DNA of 64,000 nucleotides, from the NCBI RefSeq assembly GCF_003002815.1, contig NZ_PVTF01000004.1, positions 248,001-312,000 on the forward strand, given 5' to 3'. The DNA comes from Umezawaea tangerina (GTDB taxonomy: Bacteria > Actinomycetota > Actinomycetes > Mycobacteriales > Pseudonocardiaceae). Below are positions 1,813 through 62,353 of the stretch, piece by piece. Numbering within the stretch: the first letter of the stretch is position 1; every line of letters begins with the position of its first letter. The notes beneath the pieces are model-generated. The model saw only the letters and a program-made list of their open reading frames with translations. It did not search any database and had not been told where the DNA came from. Both the position numbers and the translations under genes were made by a program.

Positions 1813-1875
1813 TCTATGCTCGCCCAAGCTTGTCAAGATAGCTTCACCGTCTTGACAAGCTTGGGCGAGCATAGA
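1813..1875 (+). repeat. Large core hairpin, element copy 1
   Basis: Perfect 26-bp arms (1813-1838 and 1850-1875), 11-nt loop. The inner part is the family core (CTTGTCAAGA paired with TCTTGACAAG, closed by a T-G wobble) around loop AGCTTCACC. The outer arm (TCTATGCTCGCCCAAG) is unique to this copy. It is followed by the type A flank ACACTCGGCGAGCGG and a conserved CCTAAACCCGCGAGCCCAAC segment. Confidence 0.85.
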
Positions 1876-1982
1876 ACACTCGGCGAGCGGGGTGGAGGCA
1901 TGTTCCCTAAACCCGCGAGCCCAACGCCACCACAAGAAGCACCCCAAACCCCGGACCCCGCACAAGCGACCCGGCACCGACC

Positions 1983-2028
1983 GTGGCGGAACCGACCCCG
2001 ACCCCCCGACCGGGTTCGGTTCCGCCAC
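1983..2028. repeat. Hairpin in the gene-free stretch before sulP
   Basis: Perfect 13-bp arms GTGGCGGAACCGA (1983-1995) and TCGGTTCCGCCAC (2016-2028), 20-nt loop. Farther on, TGTGCCGACACG occurs twice (2201-2212 and 2218-2229), a possible regulatory direct repeat upstream of the SulP gene. No gene seen between 1876 and 2410. Confidence 0.5.
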
Positions 2029-2410
2029 GCCCTCCCCCCACAACCTCCATAACCCCCAGTGACCCCCCACTGATGATCGACACGTCCGGTTGAAACCCGT
2101 GTCGTCTGGGCCACATCTTCGTCCATCATGGACACGACGCGACCTCCCTTTCCACCAGCCCGCACCCCGGGCCGCCGGAAGGGGAAGTCCCGACGCGGGT
2201 TGTGCCGACACGTCCACTGTGCCGACACGGAGGTGCCTTGCGGCGACCCCCTACCACCGCGCCGAGGCCGAGTCCGCACTCGTCGCCTTCCGGCTGCGCC
2301 TCGTGCTGCCCTCAGCACGCCGCGCTCCTTCGACACCCCGCTAGACCCACCCCACCGACAACCCCGCGCCCCACCCGGCTCGGGCATGACAACGCACCCC
2401 GAAGGAAGAC

Positions 2411-4669
2411 ATGAACCGCCCCCGCTCCAACAAGTCCCACGCAGGCGAGCACACCACCGCGGGACCCCCGCTGCGCTTCCCGGGAACTCTCCGCTTCGAC
2501 CTGCCCGCTTCCTTCGTGCTGTTCCTCATCGCCGTCCCGCTGTCCCTCGGCGTGGCCGCGGCGACCGGGGCCCCGCTCATCTCCGGCCTCATCGCCTCGG
2601 TCGTCGGCGGCATCGTCGCCGGTCTCTTCGGCGGCACTCCGTTGCAGGTCAGCGGCGCGGCCACCGGTCTGATCGTGGTCACCGCCGGTCTGGTCATCAA
2701 GTTCGGCTGGGCGGCCACCGCCGCCATCACCCTCGCCGCGGGCTTCGTCCAGATCGTGCTGGGCGTGACGCGGGTGGCCCGCCTCGCGCTCTCCCTCTCG
2801 CCGGCCGTCGTGCACGGCATGCTCGCCGGTATCGGCATCAGCATCGCCCTGGGCCAGCTGGTGATCGTGCTGGGCGGCCACGCCCACCCCACGACGTTGG
2901 AGAACCTCTCCGAGCTGCCCGCCGAGCTGCACGGCTCGCACTTCGGCTCGGTGGTCGTCGGCGCCGTCGCGGTGGCCGTGATGCTGATGTGGCAACGGAT
3001 CCCGCGCTCCGCACTGGTCCCGGCACCGCTCGCCGCCGTGCTGGCCGCGACCCTGACGTCCATCGCGCTGCGCGTCGACGTGTCCACAGTGGACCTCCCC
3101 GACGCGCCGCTCGCCGACATGGTCTTCCCCAAGGTGCCCCAGGGCAGCGTCGGAGCGGTCGCGCTGGCCGTGGTGTCCGTCGCGCTGGTCGCCAGCATGG
3201 AGTCCCTGCTGTCCGCCGTGGCGGTCGACAAGCTGCACGACGGCCCCCGCGCGAACCTGGACCGCGAGCTGGTCGCCCAGGGCGCGGCCAACGTCGTGTC
3301 CGGCGCGCTGGGCGGCCTCCCGGTGAGCGGCGGCATCATCCGCGGTTCCGCGAACGTCGCCGCGGGCGCCCGCACCCGCGCCTCCACCGTCCTGCACGGC
3401 GTCTGGGTCCTCGTCTTCGTGGTCGCGCTCGGCGGCCTGCTGGACCTCATCCCCCTCGCCGCCCTCGCGGGTGTGCTGCTCGTGGTGGGCCTGCGCCTGG
3501 TGAGCCGCGACCGCGTGCGCAAGCTGGCGCAGCACGGCGAGATCGCCCCCTACGTCGGCACCCTCGCCGGTGTCCTGGTGTTCGGGCTGGTCGAGGGCGT
3601 CCTCATCGGCATGGCGATCGCCGTCCTGAGGTCGTTGTACCGCCTGACGCACAGCACCGTGCGCGTCGACGAGGAGCCGGACGGCTGGCGCGTGTCGATC
3701 CGCGGCTCGCTGGTGTTCCTCGGTGTCGGCAGGCTCGTCCGCGAGCTGCGCCGCATCCCGCTCGGCAAGCGCGTCGTGCTGGAGCTGCACATCGACTTCA
3801 TGGACCACGCCGCGTTCGAGGCCGTCGACGACTGGCGCGCCGGCTACCAGCGGCTGGGCGGCCAGGTCGACGTGGACGAGGTGCACGACACCTGGTTCGG
3901 CAAGGCCATCGGCGGCAAGCCGGGCCTGCGCAAGACTCCCCCGTCGCCGCTCCCGCGCTGGTTCGCGCCGTGGTCGCACTGGCAGCGCACCCGTCCCGGT
4001 GACGCGCCCGGTGTCGTGCTGCCCACCCAGCGCGGCGACACCGACCCGATGATCCTCGGCATGCACGAGTTCGAGCGGAACTCCGCCCCGCTCGTCCGCC
4101 CGTTCCTCGCCGAGCTCGCCGCCCGCGGCCAACGCCCGAAGCAGCTGTTCATCACCTGCGCCGACTCCCGCGTGGTCCCCAACCTGATCACCAGCAGCGG
4201 CCCCGGCGACCTCTTCTGCGTCCGCAACATCGGCAACCTCGTGCCCGTGCACGGCACCGACGACTCCATGGGCGCCGCCATCGAGTACGCCGTCGAGGTG
4301 CTCGGCGTCTCCACCATCGCCGTCTGCGGCCACTCCCACTGCGGCGCGATGGGCGCGCTCGTCAACGGCTCCACCCGCCCCGGCACCGCCCTCAACTCCT
4401 GGCTGCACCACGCCGACCGCAGCCTCATCCGCTTCCACGAACCGAGCACGACGATCGACCGGGAGCTGCCGGTGGTCGAACGGCTCAGCGTCGCCAACGT
4501 CGCCCAGCAACTCGACAACCTGCTCACCCACCCGGCCGTCCGCGAAGCCGTGGCCTCGAACGCACTGCGCCTCACGGGCATGTACTTCGACATCTCCGCC
4601 GCCCGCGTCTACCTCGTCAACCCCGACCGCAACGCCCTCGAACCACTCCGCACCCCCGCGGGCCGCTAG
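2411..4669 (+). CDS. SulP-family anion transporter fused to beta-carbonic anhydrase
   Basis: 752 aa membrane protein. Residues about 22-410 are a SulP permease with many hydrophobic spans (FPGTLRFDLPASFVLFLIAV, then GGTPLQVSGAATGLIVV). Residues about 415-500 look like a STAS-like linker. Residues about 545-745 are a beta-carbonic anhydrase with zinc ligands Cys583 (CADSR), His641 and Cys644 (GHSHCGAMGAL). SulP members carry bicarbonate, sulfate or other anions; the fused anhydrase suggests bicarbonate uptake or HCO3-/CO2 interconversion at the membrane (inference). The ATG at 2411 has an AAGGA ribosome site 4-8 nt upstream. It stands alone after a 1.1 kb repeat-rich stretch. Confidence 0.93.
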   Translation: MNRPRSNKSHAGEHTTAGPPLRFPGTLRFDLPASFVLFLIAVPLSLGVAAATGAPLISGLIASVVGGIVAGLFGGTPLQVSGAATGLIVVTAGLVIKFGWAATAAITLAAGFVQIVLGVTRVARLALSLSPAVVHGMLAGIGISIALGQLVIVLGGHAHPTTLENLSELPAELHGSHFGSVVVGAVAVAVMLMWQRIPRSALVPAPLAAVLAATLTSIALRVDVSTVDLPDAPLADMVFPKVPQGSVGAVALAVVSVALVASMESLLSAVAVDKLHDGPRANLDRELVAQGAANVVSGALGGLPVSGGIIRGSANVAAGARTRASTVLHGVWVLVFVVALGGLLDLIPLAALAGVLLVVGLRLVSRDRVRKLAQHGEIAPYVGTLAGVLVFGLVEGVLIGMAIAVLRSLYRLTHSTVRVDEEPDGWRVSIRGSLVFLGVGRLVRELRRIPLGKRVVLELHIDFMDHAAFEAVDDWRAGYQRLGGQVDVDEVHDTWFGKAIGGKPGLRKTPPSPLPRWFAPWSHWQRTRPGDAPGVVLPTQRGDTDPMILGMHEFERNSAPLVRPFLAELAARGQRPKQLFITCADSRVVPNLITSSGPGDLFCVRNIGNLVPVHGTDDSMGAAIEYAVEVLGVSTIAVCGHSHCGAMGALVNGSTRPGTALNSWLHHADRSLIRFHEPSTTIDRELPVVERLSVANVAQQLDNLLTHPAVREAVASNALRLTGMYFDISAARVYLVNPDRNALEPLRTPAGR

Positions 4670-4683
4670 CCGACGCACCGGAA

Positions 4684-4739
4684 TTGTCGGACCCCCTGAG
4701 TACCGTGGATCTTCGGGGGGCCTTCACGACCGGGGGACC
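4684..4739 (-). repeat. Dispersed 55-nt repeat, copy a
   Basis: Read on the minus strand it runs from GTCCCCCGGTCGTGAAG to GGTACTCAGGGGGTCCGAC. Closely similar sequences occur at 6424-6476 and 7046-7100 on the plus strand. It sits between the convergent sulP and dacB genes. An internal CCCCCC/GGGGGT pairing is possible. Nature unknown. Confidence 0.6.
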
Positions 4740-4754
4740 TCTGGTCCCCATGAC

Positions 4755-4790
4755 AACGGGGGTCCCCCACGCGTGTGGGAGACCCCCGTT
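4755..4790. terminator. Bidirectional terminator hairpin
   Basis: AACGGGGGTC (4755-4764) pairs with GACCCCCGTT (4781-4790). The stem continues inward (CCCAC/GTGGG) after one mismatch, leaving a 4-nt loop. It lies between the convergent sulP and dacB genes and ends 18 nt from the dacB stop. Confidence 0.75.
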
Positions 4791-4807
4791 CGTTCGTCAA
4801 CCGCGCG

Positions 4808-6358
4808 TCAGCAGGCCTTCCGCCAGCTGCACTCCATGTCGTCCAGCCGGTTGCCCTTCTCCACGGGCGCGGGCTGCTGCCTCGCCTGGATCTTCGGCTG
4901 CGACTGCCCCGCCTTGTCCGAGGCCAGCCTGACTGCCACCGCGTCCTCGATGTCCTTCGGCGGCCCGGACACGAAGTTGTTCTGCAGCAACGAGAACACC
5001 AGCTTCCGCCCGTCCGCGTTGGTGACGTACCCCGACAGCGCGGTGACCCCGGTCATCGACCCGGTCTTCGCGTGCAGGTTGTTCGCCGCCGCCGTGCCGA
5101 TCATGCGGTTGCGCAGCGTGCCGCCCGCGATCCGGTCCTGCACGGCGGCGATCGGCAGCGCGTCGTACCACGGCTGGAACCACGACTTCGTCCGCGCCGC
5201 GCGCAGCACCGACACGAACAGGTCCGGCGACAGCAGGTCCATGCGGGACAGCCCCGAGCCGTCGAACAGGTTCATCGTCAACGGGTCCGCGCCCAGACCG
5301 GGCAGCCTCGCCTCCAGCTCCCGGATGCCCGCCGCCCAGCTGCCCTCGCCAGATGCCTTGCGCCCCATGGACTTGATGAGCATCTCGGCGTGCATGTTGT
5401 TGCTGAGCTTGAGGAACGTCACCAGCAGCTCGCGCAGCGGCATGGACTGGTGGTCCACCAGCACCTGCGCCGACGACGGCGTCTCCCGGAACTGCGTACC
5501 ACCGGTCACCGTGATCCCGTGGCTCTGCAACGACTTCCGGAACAACCCGGCCACCAGCGTCGTCGGGTCGTTCACCGAGATGTACTCCGTGTACGGCTGC
5601 CCGCCCACGGCCAGCGACCCGCCCACGCTCACCACGTTCGTGCCGTGCGTCCGGTGCACGAACACCCCGTCCGCACTTCCGGTAGTCGCCGTGTTGTTGA
5701 TCGTCAGGTCCAACGGCGGCGTCAACGTCACCACCGCCGGCTGCCCCTGCGCCCCAGGACTGACCTTCACCGCGACCGACCCCGCGTCGAAGTCGACGTC
5801 CGGCGCGATCGTCAACGCCGACGTCTGCGCACTGAAGTAGTACGGCTCGTCGTCCCACGCCCACCCGGTGCCCAACGGCACCGAGTCGAACCAGCTGTCA
5901 TCAGCGACCAGCGCCCCGCTGACCGTGCGAACACCAGTCGCCGCGAGCTTCGCCGCCAGGTCGTCGTAGTCGGCCGCCAACATCGTCGGATCACCAGTCC
6001 CCCGCAGGAACAGGTCCCCGTTCAACACCGTCCCCTGCACAGCCGCGGTCGACCGCAACTGCGTACTCCACCGGTGATCGGCCCCAAGCGAGTCCAACGC
6101 AGCCGCCGACGTCACCAACTTCGCGTTCGACCCAGGCTGGAACCGACTCGACCCGGATCTCGTGTAGATCAACTCCCCGGTCTCGGCATCCTTGACGACC
6201 AACCCGACATTCGCCCCCGACAGGCGCGAGTCGGACAAAATTCGATCAAGGTCCGCCGCAAGCGGATTAGCATCCAACGCCGTCGCCCCGCCGGTGGACA
6301 AACCCAGCACGAGGGACAAGGACGCAAGCAGGGCAAGCAGTCGTGGCCAACGGATCAT
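4808..6358 (-). CDS. dacB: D-alanyl-D-alanine carboxypeptidase/endopeptidase (PBP4, peptidase S13)
   Basis: 516 aa exported penicillin-binding protein that trims or cleaves peptidoglycan peptides. A signal peptide covers residues 1-28 (IRWPRLLALLASLSLVLGL). Active-site motifs: SNAK with Ser77 and Lys80 (PGSNAKLVTS), SNN (LKLSNNMHAE), and KTG (LHAKTGSMTG). Length and motif spacing match the S13 family. ATG at 6358 chosen because it gives a clean signal peptide; an in-frame GTG at 6388 would add ten polar residues. No strong ribosome site is visible for either. Monocistronic, with a terminator hairpin downstream and repeat element copy 2 upstream. Confidence 0.93.
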   Translation of the reverse strand: MIRWPRLLALLASLSLVLGLSTGGATALDANPLAADLDRILSDSRLSGANVGLVVKDAETGELIYTRSGSSRFQPGSNAKLVTSAAALDSLGADHRWSTQLRSTAAVQGTVLNGDLFLRGTGDPTMLAADYDDLAAKLAATGVRTVSGALVADDSWFDSVPLGTGWAWDDEPYYFSAQTSALTIAPDVDFDAGSVAVKVSPGAQGQPAVVTLTPPLDLTINNTATTGSADGVFVHRTHGTNVVSVGGSLAVGGQPYTEYISVNDPTTLVAGLFRKSLQSHGITVTGGTQFRETPSSAQVLVDHQSMPLRELLVTFLKLSNNMHAEMLIKSMGRKASGEGSWAAGIRELEARLPGLGADPLTMNLFDGSGLSRMDLLSPDLFVSVLRAARTKSWFQPWYDALPIAAVQDRIAGGTLRNRMIGTAAANNLHAKTGSMTGVTALSGYVTNADGRKLVFSLLQNNFVSGPPKDIEDAVAVRLASDKAGQSQPKIQARQQPAPVEKGNRLDDMECSWRKAC

Positions 6359-6423
6359 CCGTCGATTCTGCACACCCCTACACCCCACACCTGTGAGGGG
6401 CCCTCATATACAGCCAAACCCAG

Positions 6424-6476
6424 GGTCCCCCAGCCGTGAAGACCCCCCGAAACCCAAGGTACTCAGGGGGTACGAC
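6424..6476 (+). repeat. Dispersed 55-nt repeat, copy b
   Basis: GGTCCCCCAGCCGTGAAGAC through GGTACTCAGGGGGTACGAC. It is on the same strand as copy c at 7046-7100, so the two bracket mini-hairpin element copy 2 as direct repeats about 620 nt apart. Confidence 0.6.
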
Positions 6477-6566
6477 ATTTTCGCGGACCACCCACACCCA
6501 CCCACCCCCCAGCAACAACAACCGACCGACCACAGCCCGACGGCAAGCCGAGCACAACACCCCATT

Positions 6567-6887
6567 GGGCGAAGCCCACCAACACGCATCCGACGCGAAG
6601 CGCCTCGGGCCTCATCGGCGCCAGCCGATGCCCTGCCGGGCGAAGCCCGACGCCCCACCCGACGCGCAGCGAGGATGCCCCGCCCGATGGCGAAGCCGAG
6701 CACAACACCCCGATGGGCGCAGCCCGCCAGCGCGCATCCGGCGCGGAGCGCCTGGGGCCTTATCGGCGCCCGCCGATGCCTGAGTCGGGCGAAGCCCGAT
6801 GCCCTGTCCGACGCGCAGCGAGGATGCCTTGTCCGACGGCGAAGCCGAGGATGCCTGAGTCGGCGAAGCCGATGCTGGCGTAGCCAG
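6567..6887 (+). repeat. GNA mini-hairpin array, element copy 2
   Basis: Includes GGGC-GAA-GCCC, CGC-GAA-GCG, CGGGC-GAA-GCCCG, GGGC-GCA-GCCC, GGCGC-GGA-GCGCC, TCGGC-GAA-GCCGA and terminal CTGGC-GTA-GCCAG, spaced by GATGCC(C/T)TGTCC-like linkers. This is the only copy not following a gene 3' end in the same direction: the gene behind it, dacB, points away. No gene seen from 6359 to about 7115. Confidence 0.8.
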
Positions 6888-6923
6888 ACCTACCCCGCAA
6901 CCCGATCCGAAGCCATCTCTGGG

Positions 6924-6974
6924 CTTGACGGAGCTTGTCAAGACAGCTCTACCGTCTTGACAAGCTCCGTCAAG
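6924..6974 (+). repeat. Large core hairpin, element copy 2
   Basis: Perfect 21-bp arms (6924-6944 and 6954-6974) with 9-nt loop AGCTCTACC. The conserved core is CTTGTCAAGAC/GTCTTGACAAG and the copy-specific outer arm is CTTGACGGAG. Followed by type A flank ACACTCGGTGAGCGG. Confidence 0.85.
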
Positions 6975-7045
6975 TCTAGAACACTCGGTGAGCGGGTTGC
7001 AGCCTCCCTAAACCCAACCCACGCCCCCGGACAGCACCACCCCAG

Positions 7046-7100
7046 GGTCCCCCCACCGAGAAAACCCCCCGAAACCCAACGTACTCACAGGGTCCGACAA
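7046..7100 (+). repeat. Dispersed 55-nt repeat, copy c
   Basis: GGTCCCCCCACCGAGAAAAC through GTACTCACAGGGTCCGAC. It ends about 15 nt before the apparent 5' end of the kinase gene, so it may supply leader sequence for it. Confidence 0.55.
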
Positions 7101-7115
7101 CCAAAGGCAACCACC

Positions 7116-7640
7116 ATCCACCCAACAAGATCATCCACCCCAACCCTCATCGAGTTCAGCGGCCTCCCCGGCACCGGCAAGTCGACCCTCTCCCGCCACC
7201 TAGCAACCCGCACCGGCGCCGTCCTCCTCCGCGTCGACGAGATCGAAGCGGCCATGCGCCGCAACGGCCTCACCCCCGACCAGACCGGTATCGCCGCCTA
7301 CAGCGTCGCCCACGACATCGCCGCGAGCCACCTCCGCCGAGGTCTGACCGTCATAGCCGACGCCGTCAACCCGGTCCCCGAAGCCCGCGCGGGCTGGCGC
7401 GACCTGGCCGTCGAGTGCGCCGCGGAGCACGTGGTCATCGAGGTCACCTGCCCGGACCCCGACATCCACCGCCGACGAGTCGAGGAGCGCGTCAGCGACC
7501 TCCCCGGCTGGACCTACCCCACCTGGGAGCAGATCCAACAACGCGACTACCGCCCGCGCACCGACGACCGCCTCGTCGTCGACACCACACACCCGGTGGA
7601 CGCCTGCCACGACGAGATCGCCCGGTACGTCGGCAGGTGA
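7116..7640 (+). CDS. P-loop kinase (AAA/zeta-toxin-like small-molecule kinase); start codon unclear
   Basis: About 175 aa predicted ATP-dependent kinase. A Walker A motif sits at the very N-terminus (LIEFSGLPGTGKSTLSRHLA). Later come a DEIEAAMR substrate-binding region, an Asp-containing second strand (VIADAVNP) and a C-terminal arginine-rich lid (DIHRRRVEERV). Substrate unknown. Oddity: there is no ATG, GTG, TTG or CTG in frame just before the Walker A motif, and the first in-frame ATG (about 7254) falls after the P-loop. The coordinate given is an ATC codon at 7116, preceded by AAAGG with 8-nt spacing, and is a guess. Frame upstream is open through the repeat array but reads it as low-complexity sequence. 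It may use a rare start, or the true start may have been lost. Confidence 0.7.
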   Translation: MHPTRSSTPTLIEFSGLPGTGKSTLSRHLATRTGAVLLRVDEIEAAMRRNGLTPDQTGIAAYSVAHDIAASHLRRGLTVIADAVNPVPEARAGWRDLAVECAAEHVVIEVTCPDPDIHRRRVEERVSDLPGWTYPTWEQIQQRDYRPRTDDRLVVDTTHPVDACHDEIARYVGR

Positions 7641-7668
7641 CCCGGTCCCCCGCGGCAGGGGGACCGGG
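7641..7668. terminator. Bidirectional terminator between kinase and gnd
   Basis: CCCGGTCCCCC (7641-7651) and GGGGGACCGGG (7658-7668) form an 11-bp stem with a 6-nt loop, placed exactly between two convergent stop codons. Confidence 0.8.
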
Positions 7669-7674
7669 AGTGGA

Positions 7675-9111: not shown

Positions 9112-9271
9112 CTGCACAGCCTGCCTAAAAAACGGCCGTAGTGCGAGGGGACGAGTGTCATAGAGCTGTTGGGTGGTGGGAGACGTAGCGGGTTGGGGGG
9201 ATCGGTGAAGCCCAGTTCCCGGCCGTCCCACCTTCTGGGGAAGCCCAGCCCCCGGCGCGCGATTGTCTCAA

Positions 9272-9326
9272 TGCCCGATCTTGCTTGTCAAGACGATGGA
9301 GCTGTCTTGACAAGCAAGATCGGGCA
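9272..9326 (-). repeat. Large core hairpin, element copy 3
   Basis: Perfect 23-bp arms (9272-9294 and 9304-9326), 9-nt loop reading AGCTCCATC on the minus strand. Core CTTGTCAAGAC/GTCTTGACAAG; the outer arm TGCCCGATCTTG differs from other copies. It carries the type B flank (CAATCGCGCGCCGGGG on the minus strand). Confidence 0.85.
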
Positions 9327-9360
9327 GGAGGGCGCTGTGGATCGGGGGCAGAGGGGGAGT

Positions 9361-9534
9361 CTGGCTTCGCCAGCATCGAGCTGCGCTCGACTCGGACATC
9401 GGGCTTCGCCCGACAAGGCATCCTCGGCTGCGCCGTTGGACAAGGCATCCGCGCTTCGCGGCGGACAGGGCATCGGCTGGCGCCGACAAGGCCCCAGGCG
9501 CTCCGCGCCGGATGCGCGCTGGCGGGCTGCGCCC
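9361..9534 (-). repeat. GNA mini-hairpin array, element copy 3
   Basis: Read on the minus strand: GGGC-GCA-GCCC, GCGC-GGA-GCGC, CGC-GAA-GCG, CGGC-GCA-GCCG, CGGGC-GAA-GCCCG, TCGAGC-GCA-GCTCGA, and terminal CTGGC-GAA-GCCAG. It begins about 50 nt after the methyltransferase stop, on the same strand. Nothing else seen in 9112-9582. Confidence 0.8.
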
Positions 9535-9582
9535 ATCGTGGATGGGGTGGTGGGGTGGCAGTGGCTGTTGCTGTTGCTGTTG

Positions 9583-26310: not shown

Positions 26311-26352
26311 GGCTGGTTCCTCAAACCCGGTATCGCTGATTCCTCGAACCCG

Positions 26353-26463
26353 GTGTCACTGCAGTGGACTACGGGGGTGTCGCTACAGCGGACTACGGGG
26401 GTGTCACTGCAGTGGACTACGGGGGTGTCGCTACAGCGGACTACGGGGTATCGCTGCAGCGGA
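26353..26463. repeat. Tandem 24-bp palindromic repeats upstream of the response regulator
   Basis: Four 24-bp units start at 26353, 26377, 26401 and 26425, alternating CACTGCAGTG and CGCTACAGCG centres, each followed by GACTACGGGG. A fifth degenerate unit (CGCTGCAGCG) follows at 26448, and a decayed half-unit lies at about 26330. The A-B-A-B order implies duplication of a 48-bp block. Located 45-155 nt upstream of the response regulator start. Confidence 0.75.
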
Positions 26464-26468
26464 CCCAG

Positions 26469-33909: not shown

Positions 33910-33982
33910 GGGTTGGTTGTGGGCTGTGCTGTGGGTTACGTGCGCGAAGCCCGGCCCCCGGCGCGCGATTGTCTCAATGCCC

Positions 33983-34027
33983 GATCTTCGTTGTCAAGAC
34001 GGTGAAGCTGTCTTGACAAGCAAGATC
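33983..34027 (-). repeat. Large core hairpin, element copy 4
   Basis: 18-nt arms (33983-34000 and 34010-34027) with two adjacent mismatches (CG against GC), loop AGCTTCACC on the minus strand, core intact in the right arm. Type B flank (GCGCGCGATTGTCTCAATG on +). The one visibly decayed copy. Confidence 0.75.
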
Positions 34028-34066
34028 AAGCAGGAGGGCGCTGTGGATCGGGGGCAGAGGGGGAGT

Positions 34067-34245
34067 CTGGCTTCGCCAGCATCAGGCTCCGCCTGACCAA
34101 GCATCCTCGCTACGCGTCGGACCAGGCATCGGCTGGCGCCGACAAGGCCCCAGGCGCTCCGCGCCGGATGCGCGCTGGCGGGCTTCGCCCAAAGGGGTCT
34201 TGGCGGGCTCGGCTGTGCCCAAAGGGGTCTTGGCGGGCTTCGCCC
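34067..34245 (-). repeat. GNA mini-hairpin array, element copy 4
   Basis: Minus-strand units include GGGC-GAA-GCCC, GCGC-GGA-GCGC, CGC-GTA-GCG, CAGGC-GGA-GCCTG and terminal CTGGC-GAA-GCCAG. The first unit touches the hisI stop codon, so the array reads as the hisI 3' untranslated region. AAAGGGGTCTTGGCGGGCT is duplicated near 34191-34239. Confidence 0.78.
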
Positions 34246-34587
34246 TTAGTCCTTGAGGAGGATGTCTGCGTCGAAGCAGGTGCGGTTGCCGGTGTGGCAG
34301 GCGGCGCCGGTTTGGTCGACTACGAGGAGGAGGGTGTCGCCGTCGCAGTCCAGGCGGACCTCGTGGACGTACTGGGTGTGGCCGGAGGTGTCGCCCTTGC
34401 GCCAGCGTTGTTGCCTGCTGCGGGAGAAGTAGGTGGCTTGGCGGGTGGTGAGGGTTTCGTGGAGGGCGGCGTCGTCCATCCACGCGACCATCAGGACCTC
34501 GCCCGTGCCGCGCTGCTGCGCGACCGCGCACACCAGTCCGTCGGCGGTCCGCTTGAGCCTGGACGCGATAGCGGGGTCGAGGGTCAC
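34246..34587 (-). CDS. hisI: Phosphoribosyl-AMP cyclohydrolase
   Basis: 113 aa, third step of histidine synthesis. Typical segments: [39 protein letters not shown], and zinc/metal region [20 protein letters not shown] plus GNRTC. No fused HisE domain. GTG at 34587 overlaps the preceding gene's TGA (GTGA). Last gene of hisF-doxX-hisI. Confidence 0.95.
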
Positions 34588-37081: not shown

Positions 37082-37394
37082 GCAGTCGCTCACGACGCTC
37101 TCCGATCCGGCTCGAACCAGTCGAAACCGCCCTGCGGGGCGTGCGGCCAGGACGGCGTGTCCGCGTCGGAAGCACCGCGGACCAGCGGTTCCAACCGCGG
37201 CGTGCGGCGCACGTCGACGCGGGGCGTGGGCATCTCTGAGCTGAGGAAGGACATGGACACACCGTGCCCAGGCACCCGCTAGGCGGGCATCATCCCGCGG
37301 TCTGGCTCGGGCACCAGCCCAAAGGATGACAACGAGCACCCGTCGGGGGTACTCGGACCGGACGGTCCGGTAGACCGCCCGGTCCTGAAAGGAC
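37082..37394. other. Gene-free stretch between the Clp-N gene and priA
   Basis: No plausible coding region on either strand. A short stem GGACCGGACGGTCC lies near 37354-37367. Otherwise nothing recognised apart from the hairpin that follows. Confidence 0.5.
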
Positions 37395-37445
37395 TAGGGC
37401 GTGTTTCCCGGATCCGTGTCCGCGGTAGCCGGGAAACACGCCCTA
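37395..37445. terminator. Terminator hairpin at the priA 3' end
   Basis: TAGGGCGTGTTTCCCGG (37395-37411) pairs over 17 bp with 37429-37445, 17-nt loop. The right arm overlaps the priA TAG stop. The CTAGGGCG ends look somewhat like insertion-element termini, but no element is present. Confidence 0.7.
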
Positions 37446-52086: not shown

Positions 52087-52087
52087 A

Positions 52088-53618: not shown

Positions 53619-54578
53619 TCAGCGCAGGTCCATCCCCAGGTCCAGCGCCGGTGAGGAGTGCGTCAGGCCGCCGACCGCCAGGTAGTCGACGCCGGTCTCG
53701 GCGTAGGCGCGGGCGACCGGGAGCGTGAGACCACCGGACGCCTCGAGCTTGACCCCGTTGGCGCGGCGGACGGCCTCGGCGCACTGCTCGGGCGTGAAGT
53801 TGTCCAGCAGCACCAGTTCCGCGCCTTCGGCGACGGCCTCGTCGAGCTGGTCGAGGCTGTCCACCTCCACCTCGCACAGCAGGTGCGGGGCGTGGGCGCG
53901 GACCGCCGCCATCGCCGCTTTCACCGACCCCGCGGCGAGGACGTGGTTGTCCTTGATGAGGATCGCGTCGCCGAGCCCCATGCGGTGGTTGACGCCGCCG
54001 CCGCAGCGGACCGCGTACTTCTCCAGCAACCGCAGGCCGGGCAACGTCTTCCGGGAGTCGCGGACCCGCGCGCCGGTGCCCGCGACCGCGTCCACCCACG
54101 CCGCCGTGGCGGTCGCGATCCCGGACAGGTGGGTCAGGAAGTTCAACGCCGTGCGCTCGGCGGTGAGCAGGTCGCGCACCCGGCCGCGCACGACGAGCGC
54201 GGGCTCACCGGGAACGGCCTTCTCGCCGTCGGCACGCTGGGACAGGACCTCCACGTCGGCGCCGAACACCTCCAGCGCCACCGGGATCCCCGCCAGCACA
54301 CCGGGAGCGCGCGGGGTGAGCTCGGCGACCGCCACCGCGTCCGCGGGCACGGTGGCCTCGGTCGTGGCGTCCGGGCCGTACCGCAGGTCCTCCGCCAACG
54401 CCAACGCGATCGCCCGGCGGGCGTCGTCCAGGTCGAGGCCGCGTCCGATGCTCGACCCTGCAAGCAGATCTTCGTGTCCGATGCTCGACCCTGCAAGCAG
54501 ATCTTCGTGTCCGATGCTCGACCCTGCAAGCAGATCTTCGTGTCCAATGCTCGACCCTGCAAGCAGATCTTCGGTCAT
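53619..54578 (-). CDS. nadC: Quinolinate phosphoribosyltransferase with repeated N-terminus
   Basis: 319 aa enzyme forming nicotinate mononucleotide from quinolinate and PRPP. Standard NadC features: AEDLRYGPDATTEATVPADA, RTALNFLTHLSGIATATAAW, RDSRKTLPGLRLLEKYAVRC, GGGVNHRMGLGDAILIKDNH. Oddity: after Met-Thr the first 44 residues are four copies of EDLLAGSSIG(H/R), encoded by a 33-bp tandem repeat, making the protein longer than usual. The ATG at 54578 overlaps the nadB stop (ATGA). Confidence 0.95.
   Translation of the reverse strand: MTEDLLAGSSIGHEDLLAGSSIGHEDLLAGSSIGHEDLLAGSSIGRGLDLDDARRAIALALAEDLRYGPDATTEATVPADAVAVAELTPRAPGVLAGIPVALEVFGADVEVLSQRADGEKAVPGEPALVVRGRVRDLLTAERTALNFLTHLSGIATATAAWVDAVAGTGARVRDSRKTLPGLRLLEKYAVRCGGGVNHRMGLGDAILIKDNHVLAAGSVKAAMAAVRAHAPHLLCEVEVDSLDQLDEAVAEGAELVLLDNFTPEQCAEAVRRANGVKLEASGGLTLPVARAYAETGVDYLAVGGLTHSSPALDLGMDLR
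54443..54574. repeat. 33-bp x 4 tandem repeat inside nadC
   Basis: Units at 54443-54475, 54476-54508, 54509-54541 and 54542-54574. The first three are identical (one base aside at junctions) and the one nearest the start codon carries a synonymous Ile change. In frame, 11 codons each, immediately after the start codon. Looks like recent expansion. Confidence 0.92.
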
Positions 54579-56194: not shown

Positions 56195-57210
56195 TCGCCG
56201 CCGCCGGGCTTGCCGATCTCGATCATCCGCTGCACCGACGCCTGCGCCCGCTTCGCGGTCTCCAGGTCGACGTGCACCTCGTCCAGGCCCTCGCGCAGGC
56301 AGCGCAGCAGGGCGGTGGGCGTGATCATCTTCATGTACCGGCACGACGCCCGGTCGTTCACCGCCCGGAAGTCGATCTCCGGCGCGGCCTTGCGCAGCTG
56401 GTGCAGCATGCCGATCTCGGTCGCCACCAGCACCGACTTCGCGGTCGTCCCGCGCGCGGCGGTGATCATGTCGCCGGTGGACAGGATGCGCACCTGGCTC
56501 GCGGGCACGATGCCCTCGCCCGCGAGGTAGAGCGCCGAGGTGGCGCAGCCGCACTCCGGGTGGATGAACAGGTCCGCCTCGGGGTCCTCGGCCGCGCGCG
56601 CGGCCAGCTCCGGACCGTTGATGCCCGCGTGCACGTGGCACTCGCCCGCCCAGATGTGCAGGTTCTCCCGACCCGTCTCGCGCTTCACGTGCGCGCCCAG
56701 GAACTGGTCGGGCAGGAACAGCACCTCGCGGTCCGCCGGGATCGAGGCGACCACGTCGACCGCGTTCGACGACGTGCAGCAGATGTCCGTCTCGGCCTTC
56801 ACCTCGGCGGTCGTGTTCACGTACGACACGACCACCGCGCCGGGGTGCTCGGCCTTCCAGGCGCGCAGCTGCTCACCGGTGATCGAGTCGGCCAGCGAGC
56901 AGCCCGCCCGCTCGTCGGGGATCAGCACGGTCTTCTGCGGGGCCAGGATCTTCGCCGTCTCCGCCATGAAGTGCACGCCGCAGAAGATGATCGTGGACGC
57001 GTCGCTGGCCGCGGCGATGCGGCTGAGCGCGAGCGAGTCGCCCGTGTGGTGGGCGATGTCCTGGATCTCGGGCAGCTGGTAGTTGTGCGCGAGGATGACC
57101 GCGTCGCGCTGACGTGCGAGCTCGAGCACCTCCGCGCGCCAGGACGCGTCGGCCTCGATGCCGTCGTACGCGCCGTCTGAGGTTCGCTCCACATATGCGG
57201 TAGCGACCAT
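56191..57210 (-). CDS. nadA: Quinolinate synthase
   Basis: 339 aa [4Fe-4S] enzyme condensing iminoaspartate with DHAP. Cluster cysteines in [28 protein letters not shown] and [14 protein letters not shown]; substrate residues [22 protein letters not shown] 57210 with GGAGG upstream. First gene of nadA-nadB-nadC, divergent from NrtR. Confidence 0.96.
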
Positions 57211-57235
57211 GGGGTCCTCCTCGCGACTCTCCGAG

Positions 57236-57258
57236 GTTTTCGCCTTTGGGTCGAAAAC
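57236..57258. promoter_or_regulatory. NrtR operator
   Basis: GTTTTCG (57236-57242), 9-nt spacer, CGAAAAC (57252-57258): perfect inverted repeat between the divergent nadA and nrtR starts, standing out as AT-rich in a GC-rich region. A TACTAT hexamer (57267-57272) could drive a leaderless nrtR from the GTG at 57279. Confidence 0.78.
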
Positions 57259-57278
57259 GTGGTCGATACTATCAGCCC

Positions 57279-57983
57279 GTGGGTCTCGCGGGACATGAGG
57301 TGTTGGCCGCAGTACTCCAGGTGAGAGCCGGATCACTCCAGGTCATGCTCTGGCAGCGCGCCCAGGAACCGCACGCCCACCGCTGGTCACTACCCGGCGG
57401 GGCGCTGGGCGACCGGGAGGACATCGAGGCCTCCATCAAGCGCCAGTTGGCGGAGAAGGTCGACGTCAGGCAGCTCTCCCACGTCGAGCAGCTGTCCGTC
57501 TTCAGCGCCCCCGACCGCGTCCCCGGCCCCCGTGTCGTCGCGACCGCTTTCCTGGGCCTGGTGCCTTCCGACATCGATCCCGAGATCCCCGCCGACACGG
57601 CCTGGTTCCCAGTGGATGGACTCCCCGAGACCGCGTTCGACCACCGTTCGATCATCCACAAGGCACGCCACCGGCTCGGCTCCAAGCTGTCGTACACCAA
57701 CCTCGGTTTCGCGCTGGCCCCGCCGGACTTCACCATCTCCGCCTTGCGCGAGCTCTACTCCGCGGCACTGGGCTACCGCGTCTCCGCCACCAACCTGCAA
57801 CGCGTGCTCTCCCGCCGCGGCCTGCTCGAACCCACCGGCGACACCTCTCCCCCCGGCCCCACCGGCGGCAGGCCCGCCGCGCTTTTCCGTTTCAGCGCAA
57901 GGGGAATCCTGGTGACCGACCAGTTCGCCGTCCTCCGCCCGCCGTCGGGCGGCCGTCCAGCAGGCGCGGGCGCCACGTCGTAA
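57279..57983 (+). CDS. nrtR: NrtR, Nudix-related regulator of NAD synthesis
   Basis: 234 aa. N-terminal Nudix-fold domain whose box reads [20 protein letters not shown], where the catalytic REUXEE glutamates are Gln and Lys, so hydrolysis is probably lost as in known NrtR proteins that bind ADP-ribose or NAD derivatives. The C-terminal winged helix includes [20 protein letters not shown] and [12 protein letters not shown]. Placement beside nadABC matches NrtR/NdnR loci in other actinobacteria. GTG at 57279; upstream TTG at 57246 would cross the operator. Confidence 0.92.
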
Positions 57984-57992
57984 CGTGGACGT

Positions 57993-58673
57993 GTGACCGA
58001 GACGCTCCCGCTCTTCCCGCTGGGCACCGTGCTGCTGCCCGGGGCGTCCTTGCCGCTGCACATCTTCGAGCCCCGCTACCGCCAGCTCACCGTCGACCTC
58101 GTCACCGGCGTCCTGCCCGACCGCCAGTTCGGCGTCGTGTCCATCCGCGAGGGCTGGGAGCTCGGCTCCGACAACGTCGGCTCGCTGCGCCAGATCGGCT
58201 GCACAGCCCTGTTGCGCGAGGCCCGCAGGCTCAACGACGGCCGCTTCGACATCGTCACCAAGGGCGAACGCCGCTTCAAACTGATCTCCGTCGACCACAA
58301 GGCCGCCCCGTACCTCGTCGGCGAGGTCGAATACCTCCCCGACACCCCCACCCCACCCCCCATCGCCGACGTCCTCCCCCTCATGGCCAAGTCCGCCCGC
58401 GCCGCCCACCAGCGCTACTGCGCCGCCGCCTGGCACCGCGAAGACTGGTCCGCCCCACCCGAGGAAACCACCCACGAACTCCTCTCATACCTGTTGGCAG
58501 GCGACTGCCTCCTAGCCCTCGAAGACAAACAACACCTCCTCGAAGAAACCTCCCCAGCCCGCCGCCTACGCCTCATCCGCCGCCTCCTCCACCTCGAAGC
58601 AGGCATCCTCGACGCCCTGCACGCCGTCCCGGTCCCCCTCTCGGAATTCGGCCACGCCTCCAACCCGAACTAA
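57993..58673 (+). CDS. LON peptidase substrate-binding-domain protein
   Basis: 226 aa with a PUA-like LON N-terminal domain (LPLFPLGTVLLPGASLPLHI, FEPRYRQL, QFGVVSIREGWELGSDN, GERRFKLISVD) and a helical C-terminus, but no protease or ATPase. Common in actinobacteria; function unknown. GTG at 57993, 9 nt after nrtR, so probably cotranscribed. Codon use in the last third shifts toward CTC/CTA/ACC runs. Confidence 0.88.
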   Translation: MTETLPLFPLGTVLLPGASLPLHIFEPRYRQLTVDLVTGVLPDRQFGVVSIREGWELGSDNVGSLRQIGCTALLREARRLNDGRFDIVTKGERRFKLISVDHKAAPYLVGEVEYLPDTPTPPPIADVLPLMAKSARAAHQRYCAAAWHREDWSAPPEETTHELLSYLLAGDCLLALEDKQHLLEETSPARRLRLIRRLLHLEAGILDALHAVPVPLSEFGHASNPN

Positions 58674-58714
58674 CCAGGCAAGCCCTTACATCCAACGCAC
58701 CAAGGACCCCAACC

Positions 58715-58870
58715 CGAAGCGCAGCGAGCCCGCCAGCGACCCATTGGGCGCAGCCCGCCAGCGCGCATCCGGCGCGGAGCGCCTGGGGCCTTGTCCGCCG
58801 CGCAGCAAGGATGCTCAGTCCGACGCGCAGCGAGGATGCCCTGTCCGTCGCGGAGCGTCGGATGCCCTCC
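58715..58870 (+). repeat. GNA mini-hairpin array, element copy 5
   Basis: Units include GGGC-GCA-GCCC, GCGC-GGA-GCGC, CGC-GCA-GCG and CGC-GGA-GCG. Follows the + strand LON-domain gene. Shortest and most degenerate of the arrays. No gene between 58674 and 59160. Confidence 0.7.
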
Positions 58871-58909
58871 CACCCATACTCCCCCCACGCACCCCGACGA
58901 GAAGCCACC

Positions 58910-58972
58910 TCTACAGCCGTCGAACCTTGTCAAGACAGATCCACCGTCTTGACAAGGTTCGACGGCTGTAGA
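58910..58972 (+). repeat. Large core hairpin, element copy 5
   Basis: Perfect 27-bp arms (58910-58936 and 58946-58972), loop AGATCCACC. Core plus the copy-specific outer arm TCTACAGCCGTCGAAC. Type A flank ACACTCGGCGACCGG and CCTGAACCCGCGAGCCCAAC follow. Confidence 0.85.
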
Positions 58973-59090
58973 ACACTCGGCGACCGGGGTGCCCCCCTCC
59001 CTGAACCCGCGAGCCCAACAACACCCAACGGCGCCCAGCGGACCCCCACCACCCCCCTCAACCGGAAACTTCCACCAATTGCCCCCTTGA

Positions 59091-59109
59091 AGGATTGTTC
59101 AACAATCCT
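59091..59109. promoter_or_regulatory. Palindromic operator upstream of the MFS gene
   Basis: AGGATTGTT-C-AACAATCCT, perfect 9-1-9 palindrome of the kind bound by FCD-type GntR regulators, 51 nt before the MFS start. No matching regulator gene lies next to it. Confidence 0.65.
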
Positions 59110-59160
59110 CTAACGTGTCCCTCACCACACCCACCGCTCACCACCCCCAGCGAGGTGCCC

Positions 59161-60438
59161 ATGAGCACGACACCCACCCAGCCCACGGCCGACACCGAAG
59201 ACACCACCCCAGGCCCCCTGGCCTGGTTCCGCACCCTCTCCCGCAACGGCAGACGAGCCTTCATCGGCGCTTTCGGCGGCTACGGCCTGGACTCCTACGA
59301 CTACTGGATCCTCCCCCTCAGCCTCGTCGCCATCTCCTCGTTCTTCGGCATCTCCAAGGGCCAGGCGGGTCTGCTCAACACCGCCACCCTCGTCCTCTCC
59401 GCTCTCGGCGGTGCGGCCGCGGGCGTCCTCGCCGACCGCGTGGGGCGGGTCAGGACGCTCCTCATCACCGTCATCACCTACGCCGTCTTCACCGTCCTGT
59501 GCGGTTTCGCCACCAGCTACGAGATGCTCCTGGTCTGCCGCGGCCTGCAGGGTCTCGGTTTCGGCGGCGAGTGGGCCGCGGGCGCGATCCTCGTTGCGGA
59601 GTACTCCAAGCCGCAGTACCGGGGTCGCGCGGTCGCCTTCATCCAGAGCGCCTGGGCTGTCGGCTGGGGTCTCGCGGTGGTCGTCTACACCGTCGTCTTC
59701 TCCTTGGCGGGCCCCGATTTCGCGTGGCGCGTCATGTTCTGGACCGGTGCGCTGCCCGCCGTCCTCGTCCTCTACGTCCGCCGCACCGTCCAGGACGCGC
59801 CCGGCACCGCCGAGCAGCGGCGGCAGAGCGGCGACAAGGGGTCGTTCCGGGCGATCTTCACCCACGGCCTCGGCCGCACCACGTTCTTCGCCGCCATGCT
59901 GGCGACCGGTGTCCAGGGCGGCTACTACACCCTCGCCACCTGGCTCCCGACCTACCTCAAGACCGAGCGCGGCCTGTCCGTCATCAACACCACGGGCTAC
60001 TACGCGTTCCTGATCTCCGGCGCCTTCATCGGCTACGTCTGCGGCGGGTTCATCACGGACCGGTTGGGGCGCAAGAAGACCTTCGCCCTCTTCGCCGTCC
60101 TGTCCGCGGTGCTGATCATGCTCTACACGCAGATCCCGGTGGGCGCGAACACCGCCGTGCTCTTCCTCGGCTTCCCGCTCGGCTTCTGCGCGTCGGCCAT
60201 CTTCAGCGGTTTCGGCTCGTTCCTGGCCGAGCTGTACCCGACGGCCGTGCGCGGCACCGGCCAGGGCTTCACCTACAACTTCGGCCGCGCCGTCGGGGCC
60301 CTGTTCCCGGCAGGTGTCGGGTTCATGGCCGAGAGCATGGGCGTCGGCGGCGCGATGGTCTTCGGCGCCGCCGCGTACGGGGTCGCCGTGCTGGCGCTGC
60401 TCGGCCTGCCGGAGACGTTGGGACGGGAGCTCACGTGA
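59161..60438 (+). CDS. MFS transporter
   Basis: 425 aa, 12 predicted spans. Short polar N-terminus, then [20 protein letters not shown]; loop motif [40 protein letters not shown]; second-half motif [14 protein letters not shown]. Resembles carboxylate transporters. ATG 59161 with GAGGTG upstream. Translationally coupled (GTGA) to the D-glutamate-cyclase-like gene, which hints at a pyroglutamate- or hydroxy-acid-related substrate. Confidence 0.9.
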
Positions 60439-61190
60439 CACCCGAGGAGGTCAGGGCCCGCGCGAGCGGGCCCACCGCGGGTCTGGCGACCGGGTTCGCG
60501 CAGGCCAACCTGATCGCGGTGCCCGCGGACTGGGCGTACGACGTGCTGCTGTTCACCCAGCGCAACCCGAAACCGTGCCCCGTGCTGGACGTGACGGACG
60601 CCGGCGACCCGCGCACGGTCCTGGCGCCGGGCGCGGACCTGCGAACCGACCTGCCGCGCTACCGGGTGTGGCACGACGGCGTCCTGACCGACGAGCCGAC
60701 CGACGTGGCGGCGCTCTGGCGCGACGACCTCGTGGCGTTCCTGATCGGGTGCAGCTTCACGTTCGAGGGCGCGCTGACCGCGGCGGGCGTGCCGCTGCGG
60801 CACGTCGAGCAGGGCCGCAACGTGTCGATGTACGCGACGGACCGCGAGTGCCGCCCGGCGGGCCGGGTGCACGGGCCCATGGTGGTCTCGATGCGCTGGA
60901 TCCCCGCCGCGCAGGTCGAGACCGCGGCCCGCGTCAGCGGCCTGATGCCCGCCGTGCACGGCGCCCCCGTGCACGCGGGCGACCCGGCCGCGCTCGGCAT
61001 CGCCGACCTGGCGGCACCGGACTTCGGCGATCCGGTCGAGGCCGCCGAGGGCGACGTGCCGGTGTTCTGGGCGTGCGGGGTGACGCCGCAGGCCGCGCTG
61101 ATGGCGTCCCGGCCGCCGTTCGCGATCACCCACGCGCCCGGCCACATGTTCGTGACCGACGTGCCCGACGACGAGTACCGCGCGGGGTAG
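60435..61190 (+). CDS. D-glutamate cyclase-like protein (DUF1445 family)
   Basis: 251 aa of the family once called putative hydro-lyase. Characteristic: [74 protein letters not shown] and [13 protein letters not shown]. One mammalian member cyclises D-glutamate to 5-oxo-D-proline; substrate here inferred only from family. GTG at 60435 overlaps the MFS stop. Confidence 0.9.
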
Positions 61191-61249
61191 ACCAGCCGGT
61201 TCACCCCGACGGGCGGGTACCGGGTGGTCCGGACCCCCGCCGCAGACGA

Positions 61250-61274
61250 ATAAGGCAAGAAGGTTGCCTAATTA
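61250..61274. promoter_or_regulatory. Inverted repeat upstream of chitosanase
   Basis: AATAAGGCAA (61250-61259), GAAGG, TTGCCTAATT (61265-61274): 10-5-10 dyad with one mismatch, AT-rich, 120 nt before the chitosanase start. Candidate operator of a chitosan-responsive repressor (inference). Confidence 0.55.
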
Positions 61275-61393
61275 GGGGTCCCCGGATACGGTGACCGCCA
61301 CCACCGCGGTCCCTCCCGCGGTGCACCGCTCCGAAGATGCAGACACCAGCCGCCGCAGCCGTGTGTCCCATCCCCTGTTCCGCGGAGGTTCTC

Positions 61394-62245
61394 GTGTTGA
61401 ACTCAGGCAGGCTCCTGCGCCTGGCCGCCGTCACGACCATGTCGGTCGCACTCGTCTCCACCGGTGCCACCACGGCCGCGCTCGCCCGACCCATGGCCGC
61501 GGACGGCGCGAAAGCCGCCGACGTGCGCGTCCAGGCCGTCGACCTGAACGACCCGGTCAAGAAGGACATCGCCATGCAGCTGGTGTCGAGCGCGGAGAAC
61601 TCCTCGCTCGACTGGAGGGCCCAGTTCGGCTACATCGAGGACATCGACGACGGCCGCGGCTACACCGGCGGCATCATCGGGTTCTGCTCCGGAACCCACG
61701 ACATGCTCGAACTGGTCGAGGCCTACACGGCCACGTCCCCCAACAACGTGCTGGCGAAGTACCTGCCCGCCCTGCGGGAGGTGGACGGGTCGGATTCGCA
61801 CGAGGGGTTGGATCCGAACTTCACCAAGGACTGGAAGACCGCCGCCAAGGACCAGGCGTTCAAGAACGCCCAGGAATCCGAACGCGACCGCGTGTACTTC
61901 AACCCGGCCGTGTCACGGGCCAAGTCGGACGGCGTCCGGACGCTCGGCCAGTTCATCTACTACGACGCGATCGTGATGCACGGCGACGGGAACGACGGGA
62001 CCAGCTTCGGGGGGATCCGGAAGCGGGCGCTGACGAAGGCCAAGCCGCCATCGCAGGGCGGGACGGAGACGGCCTGGCTGAACGCGTTCCTGGACGCGCG
62101 GAAGTGGGCGATGCAGCAGGAGGAAGCGCACTCGGACACGAGCCGGGTGGACACGGCGCAGAGGGTGTTCCTGAACGCGGGGAACTTCGACCTGAACACG
62201 CCGCTGAGGTGGAAGGTGTACGGGGATAGTTTTGAGATCAGCTAG
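61394..62245 (+). CDS. csn: Secreted chitosanase, GH46
   Basis: 283 aa exported glycoside hydrolase cleaving chitosan. Signal peptide residues 1-31. Catalytic Glu68 (QLVSSAENSSLDWRAQFGYI) and Asp86 (EDIDDGRGYTGGIIGF) align with Glu22 and Asp40 of Streptomyces N174 chitosanase; FCSGTHDMLELV follows. GTG at 61394 chosen with GGAGG 7 nt upstream; TTG 61397 is an alternative. Monocistronic. Confidence 0.95.
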   Translation: MLNSGRLLRLAAVTTMSVALVSTGATTAALARPMAADGAKAADVRVQAVDLNDPVKKDIAMQLVSSAENSSLDWRAQFGYIEDIDDGRGYTGGIIGFCSGTHDMLELVEAYTATSPNNVLAKYLPALREVDGSDSHEGLDPNFTKDWKTAAKDQAFKNAQESERDRVYFNPAVSRAKSDGVRTLGQFIYYDAIVMHGDGNDGTSFGGIRKRALTKAKPPSQGGTETAWLNAFLDARKWAMQQEEAHSDTSRVDTAQRVFLNAGNFDLNTPLRWKVYGDSFEIS

Positions 62246-62306
62246 GGGTTGATGCTGGTGGGGGACAGCGAAGCCCAGCCCCCGCAGCGCGATTGTCTCA
62301 ATGCTT

Positions 62307-62353
62307 CACCCCCGCTTGTCAAGACGGTAAAGCTGCCTTGACAAGCGGGGGTG
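62307..62353 (-). repeat. Large core hairpin, element copy 6
   Basis: 17-bp perfect arms (62307-62323 and 62337-62353), extended by two inner positions with one A-C mismatch; loop AGCTTTACC on the minus strand; outer arm CACCCCCG. Type B flank (GCGCGATTGTCTCAATG on +). Confidence 0.8.

Follow-up and report, generated by a model that had tools for sequence, protein, structure and literature searches.

Dispersed hairpins of Umezawaea tangerina share sequence and structure with a candidate replication hairpin of actinomycete integrative and conjugative elements

Six copies of a hairpin lie within a 64,000-nt stretch of the Umezawaea tangerina genome (10.68 Mb; contig NZ_PVTF01000004.1, positions 248,001-312,000; hereafter the window), and they raise the question of what kind of element would keep its stem paired while the sequence of that stem differs from copy to copy. 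A preliminary description had reported the six hairpins, each next to an array, with a conserved core and with outer arms that vary yet pair perfectly in four of the copies. This observation is confirmed here and is stronger than was stated: the 11+9+11 dyad has six matches in the window against none in 100 shuffles, and a genome-wide search for it returns 176 sites at ≤3 mismatches against none for a reversed-pattern control. Two details need qualification. The dyad is present in all six hairpins, with one mismatch to its quoted form in three of them (1829, 33990 and 62315), and the perfect pairing claimed for four is less strict, as the stem of the hairpin at 6924 includes G.T pairs close to its base, the mismatched arms being those at 33983 and 62307. 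The arms pair in the other genomic copies too, and none of the 12 half-cores in the window (≤1 mismatch) lies outside the six dyads. Measured from closing stem to closing stem, the elements are:

1793-1894, plus strand: element 1, subtype A; tip at 1829-1859
6898-6999, plus strand: element 2, subtype A; tip at 6934-6964, variable stem with G.T pairs close to its base
9247-9351, minus strand: element 3, subtype B; tip at 9284-9314
33953-34056, minus strand: element 4, subtype B; tip at 33990-34020, left and right arms matching two different arm haplotypes
58890-58991, plus strand: element 5, subtype A; tip at 58926-58956
62278-62382, minus strand: element 6, subtype B; tip at 62315-62345, two arm mismatches

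Each element is an imperfect hairpin of ~100 nt with a closing stem, an asymmetric loop (5' AGC, 3' ACAMT), a variable stem and a near-invariant tip; the minus-strand copies are those with hairpins at 9272, 33983 and 62307. The subtypes share this plan and differ in frame: a closing stem (CACCCCG/CGGGGTG or GCCCCC/GGGGGC) is followed by a short inner stem, the asymmetric loop, the variable stem and a 10-bp tip with a 9-nt loop. The outer stem and the asymmetric internal loop extend the structure beyond what had been described, and the DNA folding z-score of the six elements ranges from -4.3 to -11.0.

The stems change in sequence and stay paired. A first round of reading covered 107 distinct elements (102 from U. 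tangerina and five from a sister species), in which the two subtypes have 33 and 32 distinct arm pairs with a mean of 12.6 and 12.5 Watson-Crick (WC) pairs of 13, compared to 6.8 after re-dealing of the arms, with a maximum of 8.6 over 500 shuffles; the arm-pair counts per subtype are slightly off, as three subtype B elements (L017, L071 and L084) were labelled A. Under the named structure, 97.3% of cells in 27 subtype A copies are paired, changes on both sides affect 120 cells vs 33 in shuffles, and pairing falls to 30-41% if the partner is slid by 1 to 3 columns. The closing stem covaries as well, C-G being replaced by A-T in 3 of the 24 readable cells of one pair. Over 55 sequences from at least three genera, covariation is present at 19 of the 30 predicted pairs, and tip and loop are near-invariant, which supports the earlier view that a conserved core with a covarying extension marks a recognised structure. 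Dispersed copies from four genomes, scored at the 14 positions beyond a 9-bp tip (the first of them always T-A), give 1712 WC, 15 G.T, 7 A.C and 16 other cells (1750 in total), with 125 distinct arm pairs among 180 copies. From seven Amycolatopsis species, 60 copies that were not de-duplicated give 695 WC, 5 G.T, 5 A.C and 15 other cells at 12 positions.

Copies outside U. tangerina were collected with tip patterns that allowed 2 or 3 mismatches at most. The tip TGTCAAGGC-ATCTTTCCC-GCCTTGACA is found in Umezawaea endophytica (G001; 20/20 stems and 19/20 loops), in the sister genome G002 (21/28 stems), in Actinokineospora sp. NBRC 105648 (G102; 21/21 stems and 16/21 loops) and in at least seven named Amycolatopsis species. 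U. tangerina has a compensated version, with G-C replaced by A-T in 108 of 111 cores and a variable loop. Its loops vary mostly between C and T on one strand (AGC-Y-Y-Y-A-Y-C), the G001 loop being near-fixed. A tip survey was positive in 5 of 200 Pseudonocardiaceae genomes, and a covariance model (R1), built from 55 elements and applied at E ≤ 1e-5, has matches in 80 of 297 genomes of this family and 16 of 46 genera; weak matches may be unrelated hairpins, as L374 seems to be. Rfam 15 has no match in the window and, at the element, only microRNA-type matches below the gathering score in nine loci. The exact ancestral tip, searched as one pattern, occurs in no viral contig, and a viral origin was set aside on that ground.

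A lead to the origin of the hairpin comes from the genomes with low match counts, 29 of 30 of which hold one to three hairpins, in most of which the arms resemble each other across genera (GCCGGTGGTGCCG-like) and are imperfect. Actinomycete integrative and conjugative elements (AICEs) of the RepSA type replicate by the rolling-circle mode, for which RepSA is the initiator. Twenty low-copy loci were fetched because of their hairpin, integrase and tRNA signs having already been seen in a few, and their genes were scored by tblastn with proteins from the same locus set: RepSA is present in 12, a TraB/FtsK-like translocase in 13 and a small conserved gene of unknown family in 16. RepSA belongs to PF20199 (5.8e-100), the integrases to PF00589, and the FtsK identity comes from Pfam. 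In all 17 RepSA loci with the hairpin (these 12 and five picked by RepSA), gene and hairpin share a strand, the gene being 6.5-12.2 kb downstream. Of 33 left flanks, 15 contain a tRNA 3' part (27-43 nt, 90-100% identity) at a distance of 0.12-0.21 kb from the hairpin, probably a lower bound with a library of 16 ARAGORN calls; these stretches reach to ≤2 nt from the tRNA 3' end (Lys, Gly, Met, Arg), and the set includes AICEs of U. tangerina (L424) and of G002 (L430). Since AICE attachment sites usually hold the 3' end of a tRNA gene (PMC3218068), the low-copy hairpin often sits beside such a site. The loci resemble AICEs of the pSAM2/RepSA kind (PMC3218068) in their RepSA, TraB/FtsK-like and integrase genes and tRNA 3' parts. 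In the available portions of the AICE literature (PMC3218068 and others) we found no account of such a hairpin, and in Rfam 15 at E ≤ 0.1 the 20 loci have no match at the hairpin, only a tmRNA elsewhere.

The window hairpins are homologous to the AICE hairpins, in sequence as well as in structure. This lead was missing from the preliminary description, which had offered a protein site, a structured RNA or a recombination or transposition end; RNA is compatible with the data, a link to a transposase was not found in searches for Y1 transposase and for recurrent neighbouring genes, and that interpretation is partly supported. In addition, 30-57 nt of the AICE-type tip match plasmids of other actinobacteria (9 records). 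One is a 1,579-bp Curtobacterium plasmid; on Cutibacterium acnes pTZC1 and Gulosibacter pARLON1 the match lies ~0.8 kb before mobC/relaxase. In the folds of the Gulosibacter and Pseudonocardia regions, GTCAAGGG pairs with CCCTTGAC. R1 matches only Gulosibacter of three plasmids searched (E 0.001), and the tip there reads, by eye, TTGACG-N16-TAACGT. A plasmid search with a window element gave no matches, and neither did one with an Amycolatopsis hairpin. On pARLON1 (L402, 4001-4053) and pTZC1 (L445, 2501-2530) the tip-like stretch is unannotated and lies between a recombinase gene and mobC/relaxase, with one hypothetical gene in between.

The imperfect arms of the low-copy hairpins indicate which strand acts. 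All 35 elements together have 373 WC, 86 G.T, 5 A.C and 26 other cells, the 31 distinct arm pairs 332 WC, 74 G.T, 5 A.C and 23 other; as the loci are related, the wobble total is a count and no set of independent trials. Three elements with quite different arms (L375, L435 and L442) have eight G.T and no A.C. A G.T pair on one strand is A.C on the other, and the ratio of 86 to 5 therefore means that one particular strand folds. The low-copy hairpin is kept as a single strand of repSA-sense polarity, with which single-stranded DNA (ssDNA) and RNA are both compatible; we take this to be the strand displaced in rolling-circle replication.

Read from tip to base, the dispersed 3' arms carry NAYAMT 17-19 nt after TTGACA in 237 of 241 copies, the mirror side doing so in one of 241. 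The low-copy 3' arms have a TTGAC-like box followed by NANNNT at 17-19 nt in 31 of 34 elements, against ~7% per element in 3'-side shuffles, with varying -10-like hexamers (CACGAT, CATGCT, GACGCT, AAGGAT). We suggest that TTGAC-N17-19-NANNNT in the 3' arm may be the layout of a folded ssDNA promoter. Frpo and many single-strand origins (sso) fold into RNA-polymerase promoters (PMC9849209, PMC4595007), and an sso with its sequence replaced and its structure kept still worked (PMC4595007). The sso of rolling-circle plasmids and of ICEBs1, and Frpo of the F plasmid (PMC4595007, PMC9849209, PMC5714925), resemble the low-copy hairpin in being imperfect hairpins of fixed orientation on rolling-circle or ssDNA-transferring elements; in these known systems structure counts beside or above sequence, and promoter boxes are formed by folding. 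Unlike these, the Umezawaea-type hairpin has no T at the first -10 position and has up to ~176 chromosomal copies with near-perfect, diverse stems. Carriage by a rolling-circle element, as is usual for an sso, applies to the low-copy hairpins (RepSA in 12 of 20 loci) and not to the dispersed copies of the window; orientation to rep is fixed (17 of 17 RepSA loci), and in the low-copy hairpins one specific strand forms the structure, which fits RNA too.

The explanation that we consider best, and to which we give about an even chance, is that the window hairpins are solitary, dispersed relatives of a ~100-140-nt sso-like hairpin of RepSA-type AICEs that would sit beside the attachment site. The displaced, repSA-sense strand of the AICE would fold into the hairpin, and host RNA polymerase would recognise a promoter in the folded strand: TTGAC, close to the tip in the 3' arm, would serve as the -35 box, the 17-19 nt of stem as a spacer whose sequence is of no consequence, and an unpaired NANNNT as the -10-like element. 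With the 3' arm as non-template strand, RNA started at the base would copy the strand 5' of the hairpin, and this short RNA could prime second-strand synthesis, which would make the hairpin an sso. Such a role would account for a stem that is free in sequence yet paired, as the spacer, and for the fixed tip and loop. Solitary copies may then have spread through chromosomes by some route, often settling between convergent genes, where their stems would drift as near-perfect palindromes, one arm being rewritten from the other by template switching, and whole hairpins would be swapped between copies by gene conversion.

A number of observations weigh against this explanation. Three of the 20 hairpin-picked loci have none of the six probed genes and a fourth has only an integrase match of 8e-10, and the hairpin is present in only 5 of 20 loci picked by RepSA (nine genomes; two loci cut short by contig ends). 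The AICE of U. tangerina has a different tip and is therefore not the direct parent of the dispersed family, nor is that family its recent offspring. Within the low-copy set, L345, L348 and L361 have perfect arms like dispersed copies and L374 looks unrelated, and the best fold of the region on the 1,579-bp Curtobacterium plasmid lacks a simple hairpin. The first -10 position is never T in the 237 and 31 hexamers, the Streptomyces -10 being TANNNT (PMC4895711). The motif counts are descriptive and no test, because it was on the conserved loop that the -10 motif was first noticed, and the patterns used to collect the 241 copies already contained TTGACA; the low-copy elements scored for it are also related to each other. 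Among 140 copies of a complete sister genome there is no strand preference about dnaA (5.50 Mb; 34+/36-, 33+/37-), and therefore no sign of fork-linked ssDNA use or insertion; a lagging-strand preference was rejected on these 140 copies, and a replichore bias suggested by a shorter list was not borne out by the fuller one. Neither a target-site duplication nor exact ends could be fixed at 88-93% sister identity.

The dispersed copies could instead be a non-autonomous mobile repeat, similar to miniature inverted-repeat transposable elements (MITEs) or repetitive extragenic palindromes (REP), whose tip and internal loop are read by an unknown enzyme, so that the likeness to an sso would reflect ancestry only. 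We regard this as a real possibility, although a somewhat doubtful one. It agrees with the high copy number and patchy distribution, the near-invariant tip, the few copies between divergent genes in U. tangerina (4 of 102) and the filled and empty sites between sister species. The site of the hairpin at 33983 (element 4) is empty in both sisters, and the convergent genes that flank the element overlap, by eye, in the two species without it; C4:185278 of U. tangerina is empty in G002, and one G002 copy is absent from the U. tangerina genome. It is at odds with the persistence of orthologous copies between species with rewritten arms, and with a series of negative results: no target-site duplication was found; no gene recurs beside the copies, the largest cluster comprising 4 of 1046 neighbouring open reading frames; and Y1 transposase (PF01797) was found in none of 8 genomes, 5 of them with an exact-tip element (5 of 14 control genomes were positive; other transposase families were not searched). 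The absence of Y1 transposase from the 8 genomes also led us to reject REP with REP-associated tyrosine transposases (RAYT). Dispersed intergenic palindromes, here with arrays, recall REP, bacterial interspersed mosaic elements (BIME) and REP doublets (REPIN) with RAYT, from which the family differs in that result and in being a ~100-nt structured element with a variable stem.

A bidirectional 3'-end RNA hairpin between convergent genes, acting as terminator or stability element, would be transcribed on both strands, and only WC pairs would be tolerated. The near absence of G.T in dispersed copies and the strong folding speak for it, as does the convergent setting of 63 of the 102 U. tangerina copies, compared to 41 convergent (and 32 divergent) of 167 background adjacent gene pairs in a 264-kb region, all scored with a simple custom gene finder. 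However, the convergent bias is weaker elsewhere (G002 11/23, G001 7/19, G102 10/18, Amycolatopsis 20/45 with 7 divergent), the low-copy relatives have a one-strand wobble bias, and a terminator needs neither a fixed tip nor an asymmetric loop; nor is there a conserved T run beside the stem, as expected of an intrinsic terminator, in 64 aligned copies inspected by eye (no terminator scan was run). We consider this reading unlikely, and equally so the proposal that the hairpin of the AICEs acts as a structured (regulatory or non-coding) RNA instead of an ssDNA origin. The excess of G.T over A.C fits same-strand RNA equally well, but no Rfam family is found at the element above threshold, and the nearby tRNA 3' part, the promoter-like 3' arm and the plasmid tip relatives suit a replication role better. 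A plain double-stranded protein-binding palindrome agrees with the palindromic, near-invariant tip but needs no sequence-independent pairing of the 13-bp stem and the outer stem, and is highly improbable.

Returning to relatives of an AICE hairpin, the manner in which their arms change can be followed at orthologous loci. In 18 orthologous element pairs, some of which share an element, the flanks are 89% identical and the arms differ at a mean of 6.0 of 12 positions, both arms being perfect in 14 of the 18. Half-swapped copies were seen as well (window 33990, L110 and L256), and they fit the pattern that ectopic conversion would leave. Template-switch mutation keeps hairpins paired (PMC8794818), and paired change with few intermediates fits a combination of template switching and conversion, although selection for pairing on both strands would also account for it. 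The likeness to template switching lies in paired changes with few wobble intermediates; unlike the general process (PMC8794818), change is here linked with a single dispersed family and observed between orthologous loci. A guide hypothesis, in which arms are copied from or aimed at local flanks, was rejected, as arms did not match their own flanks better than others in three genomes (in G001 the match to own flanks was barely higher, 9.45 vs 9.29 of 13).

As the preliminary description had noted, every one of the six hairpins has an array beside it; the arrays consist of GCGNAGC-type mini-hairpins. DNA mini-hairpins formed by GCGNAGC are very stable, and Streptomyces telomeres carry loops of this type. 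The arrays, with approximate ends, lie 5' of their elements:

1472-1780, plus strand: GCGNAGC-type mini-hairpin array of element 1; 13 motif hits
6568-6885, plus strand: array of element 2; 12 motif hits
9365-9540, minus strand: array of element 3; 7 motif hits
34070-34250, minus strand: array of element 4; 6 motif hits, a seventh apart at 34521
58719-58860, plus strand: array of element 5; 6 motif hits
62395-62703, minus strand: array of element 6; 13 motif hits

Over a 264-kb part of the U. tangerina genome, an array anchor motif lies ≤350 bp from 10 of 10 cores, and 12 of 12 anchors are beside a core. The array nevertheless looks like a separate, lineage-specific companion of the hairpin, because cores of the sister regions are often without an anchor (one is present beside 3 of 7 in G002 and 0 of 2 in G001).

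Other repeats were noticed in the same sequences. A second palindromic family has a constant outer stem, GGCCGATTTGACTTGGGG/CCCCAAGTNAAATCGGCC, and variable inner arms that are complementary by eye; it has at least 6 copies in 200 kb of G001 (at 79239, 123870, 137053, 149369, 153975 and 181035 of L118-L127 joined, G001:C6:150001-350000), 2 in 200 kb of G002 (G002:C1 near 3542339, L133, and 3637549, L137) and none in 264 kb of U. tangerina. A hairpin GGGCGTGTTTCCCGG...CCGGGAAACACGCCC at 37391-37433 of the window recurs at several U. tangerina sites and more often in G002. The window also contains four repeats of a 33-bp unit with 98% identity (54443-54573) and a 24/48-bp tandem repeat of ~five units with alternating variants (26352-26464). 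Elsewhere in the U. tangerina genome, the small RNA ASdes (RF01781) has a match at 320-387 of L077 on the minus strand (78.7 bits, gathering score 40). At the G002 ortholog of the 9272 site (L132 ~2833-4149; G002:C1:3522833-3524149) the hairpin is replaced by what looks, by eye, like a TnpB-type IS605 gene.

The open-access literature on actinobacterial repeats, ssDNA promoters, sso, AICEs and MITEs, in the portions available, yielded no description of the hairpin, most subscription papers being outside this scope. A numerous and unexplained chromosomal repeat is now tied to a candidate replication element of AICEs. How paired stems change can be studied here as a natural experiment: in low-copy loci the arms of related hairpins are conserved and rich in wobble pairs, and in chromosomes they are near-perfect and change fast. 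If the sso reading is true, it becomes possible to test where a group of AICEs starts its second strand, and one may ask, in view of the chromosomal copies, whether ssDNA priming extends over whole chromosomes. The dispersed hairpins might even be domesticated ssDNA promoters that fold at fork collapse, during gap repair or in incoming DNA, recruit RNA polymerase, and prime or transcribe. This is a long shot; if true, the replication origin of a mobile element would have become a genome-wide host priming system, with its stems rewritten by palindrome correction.

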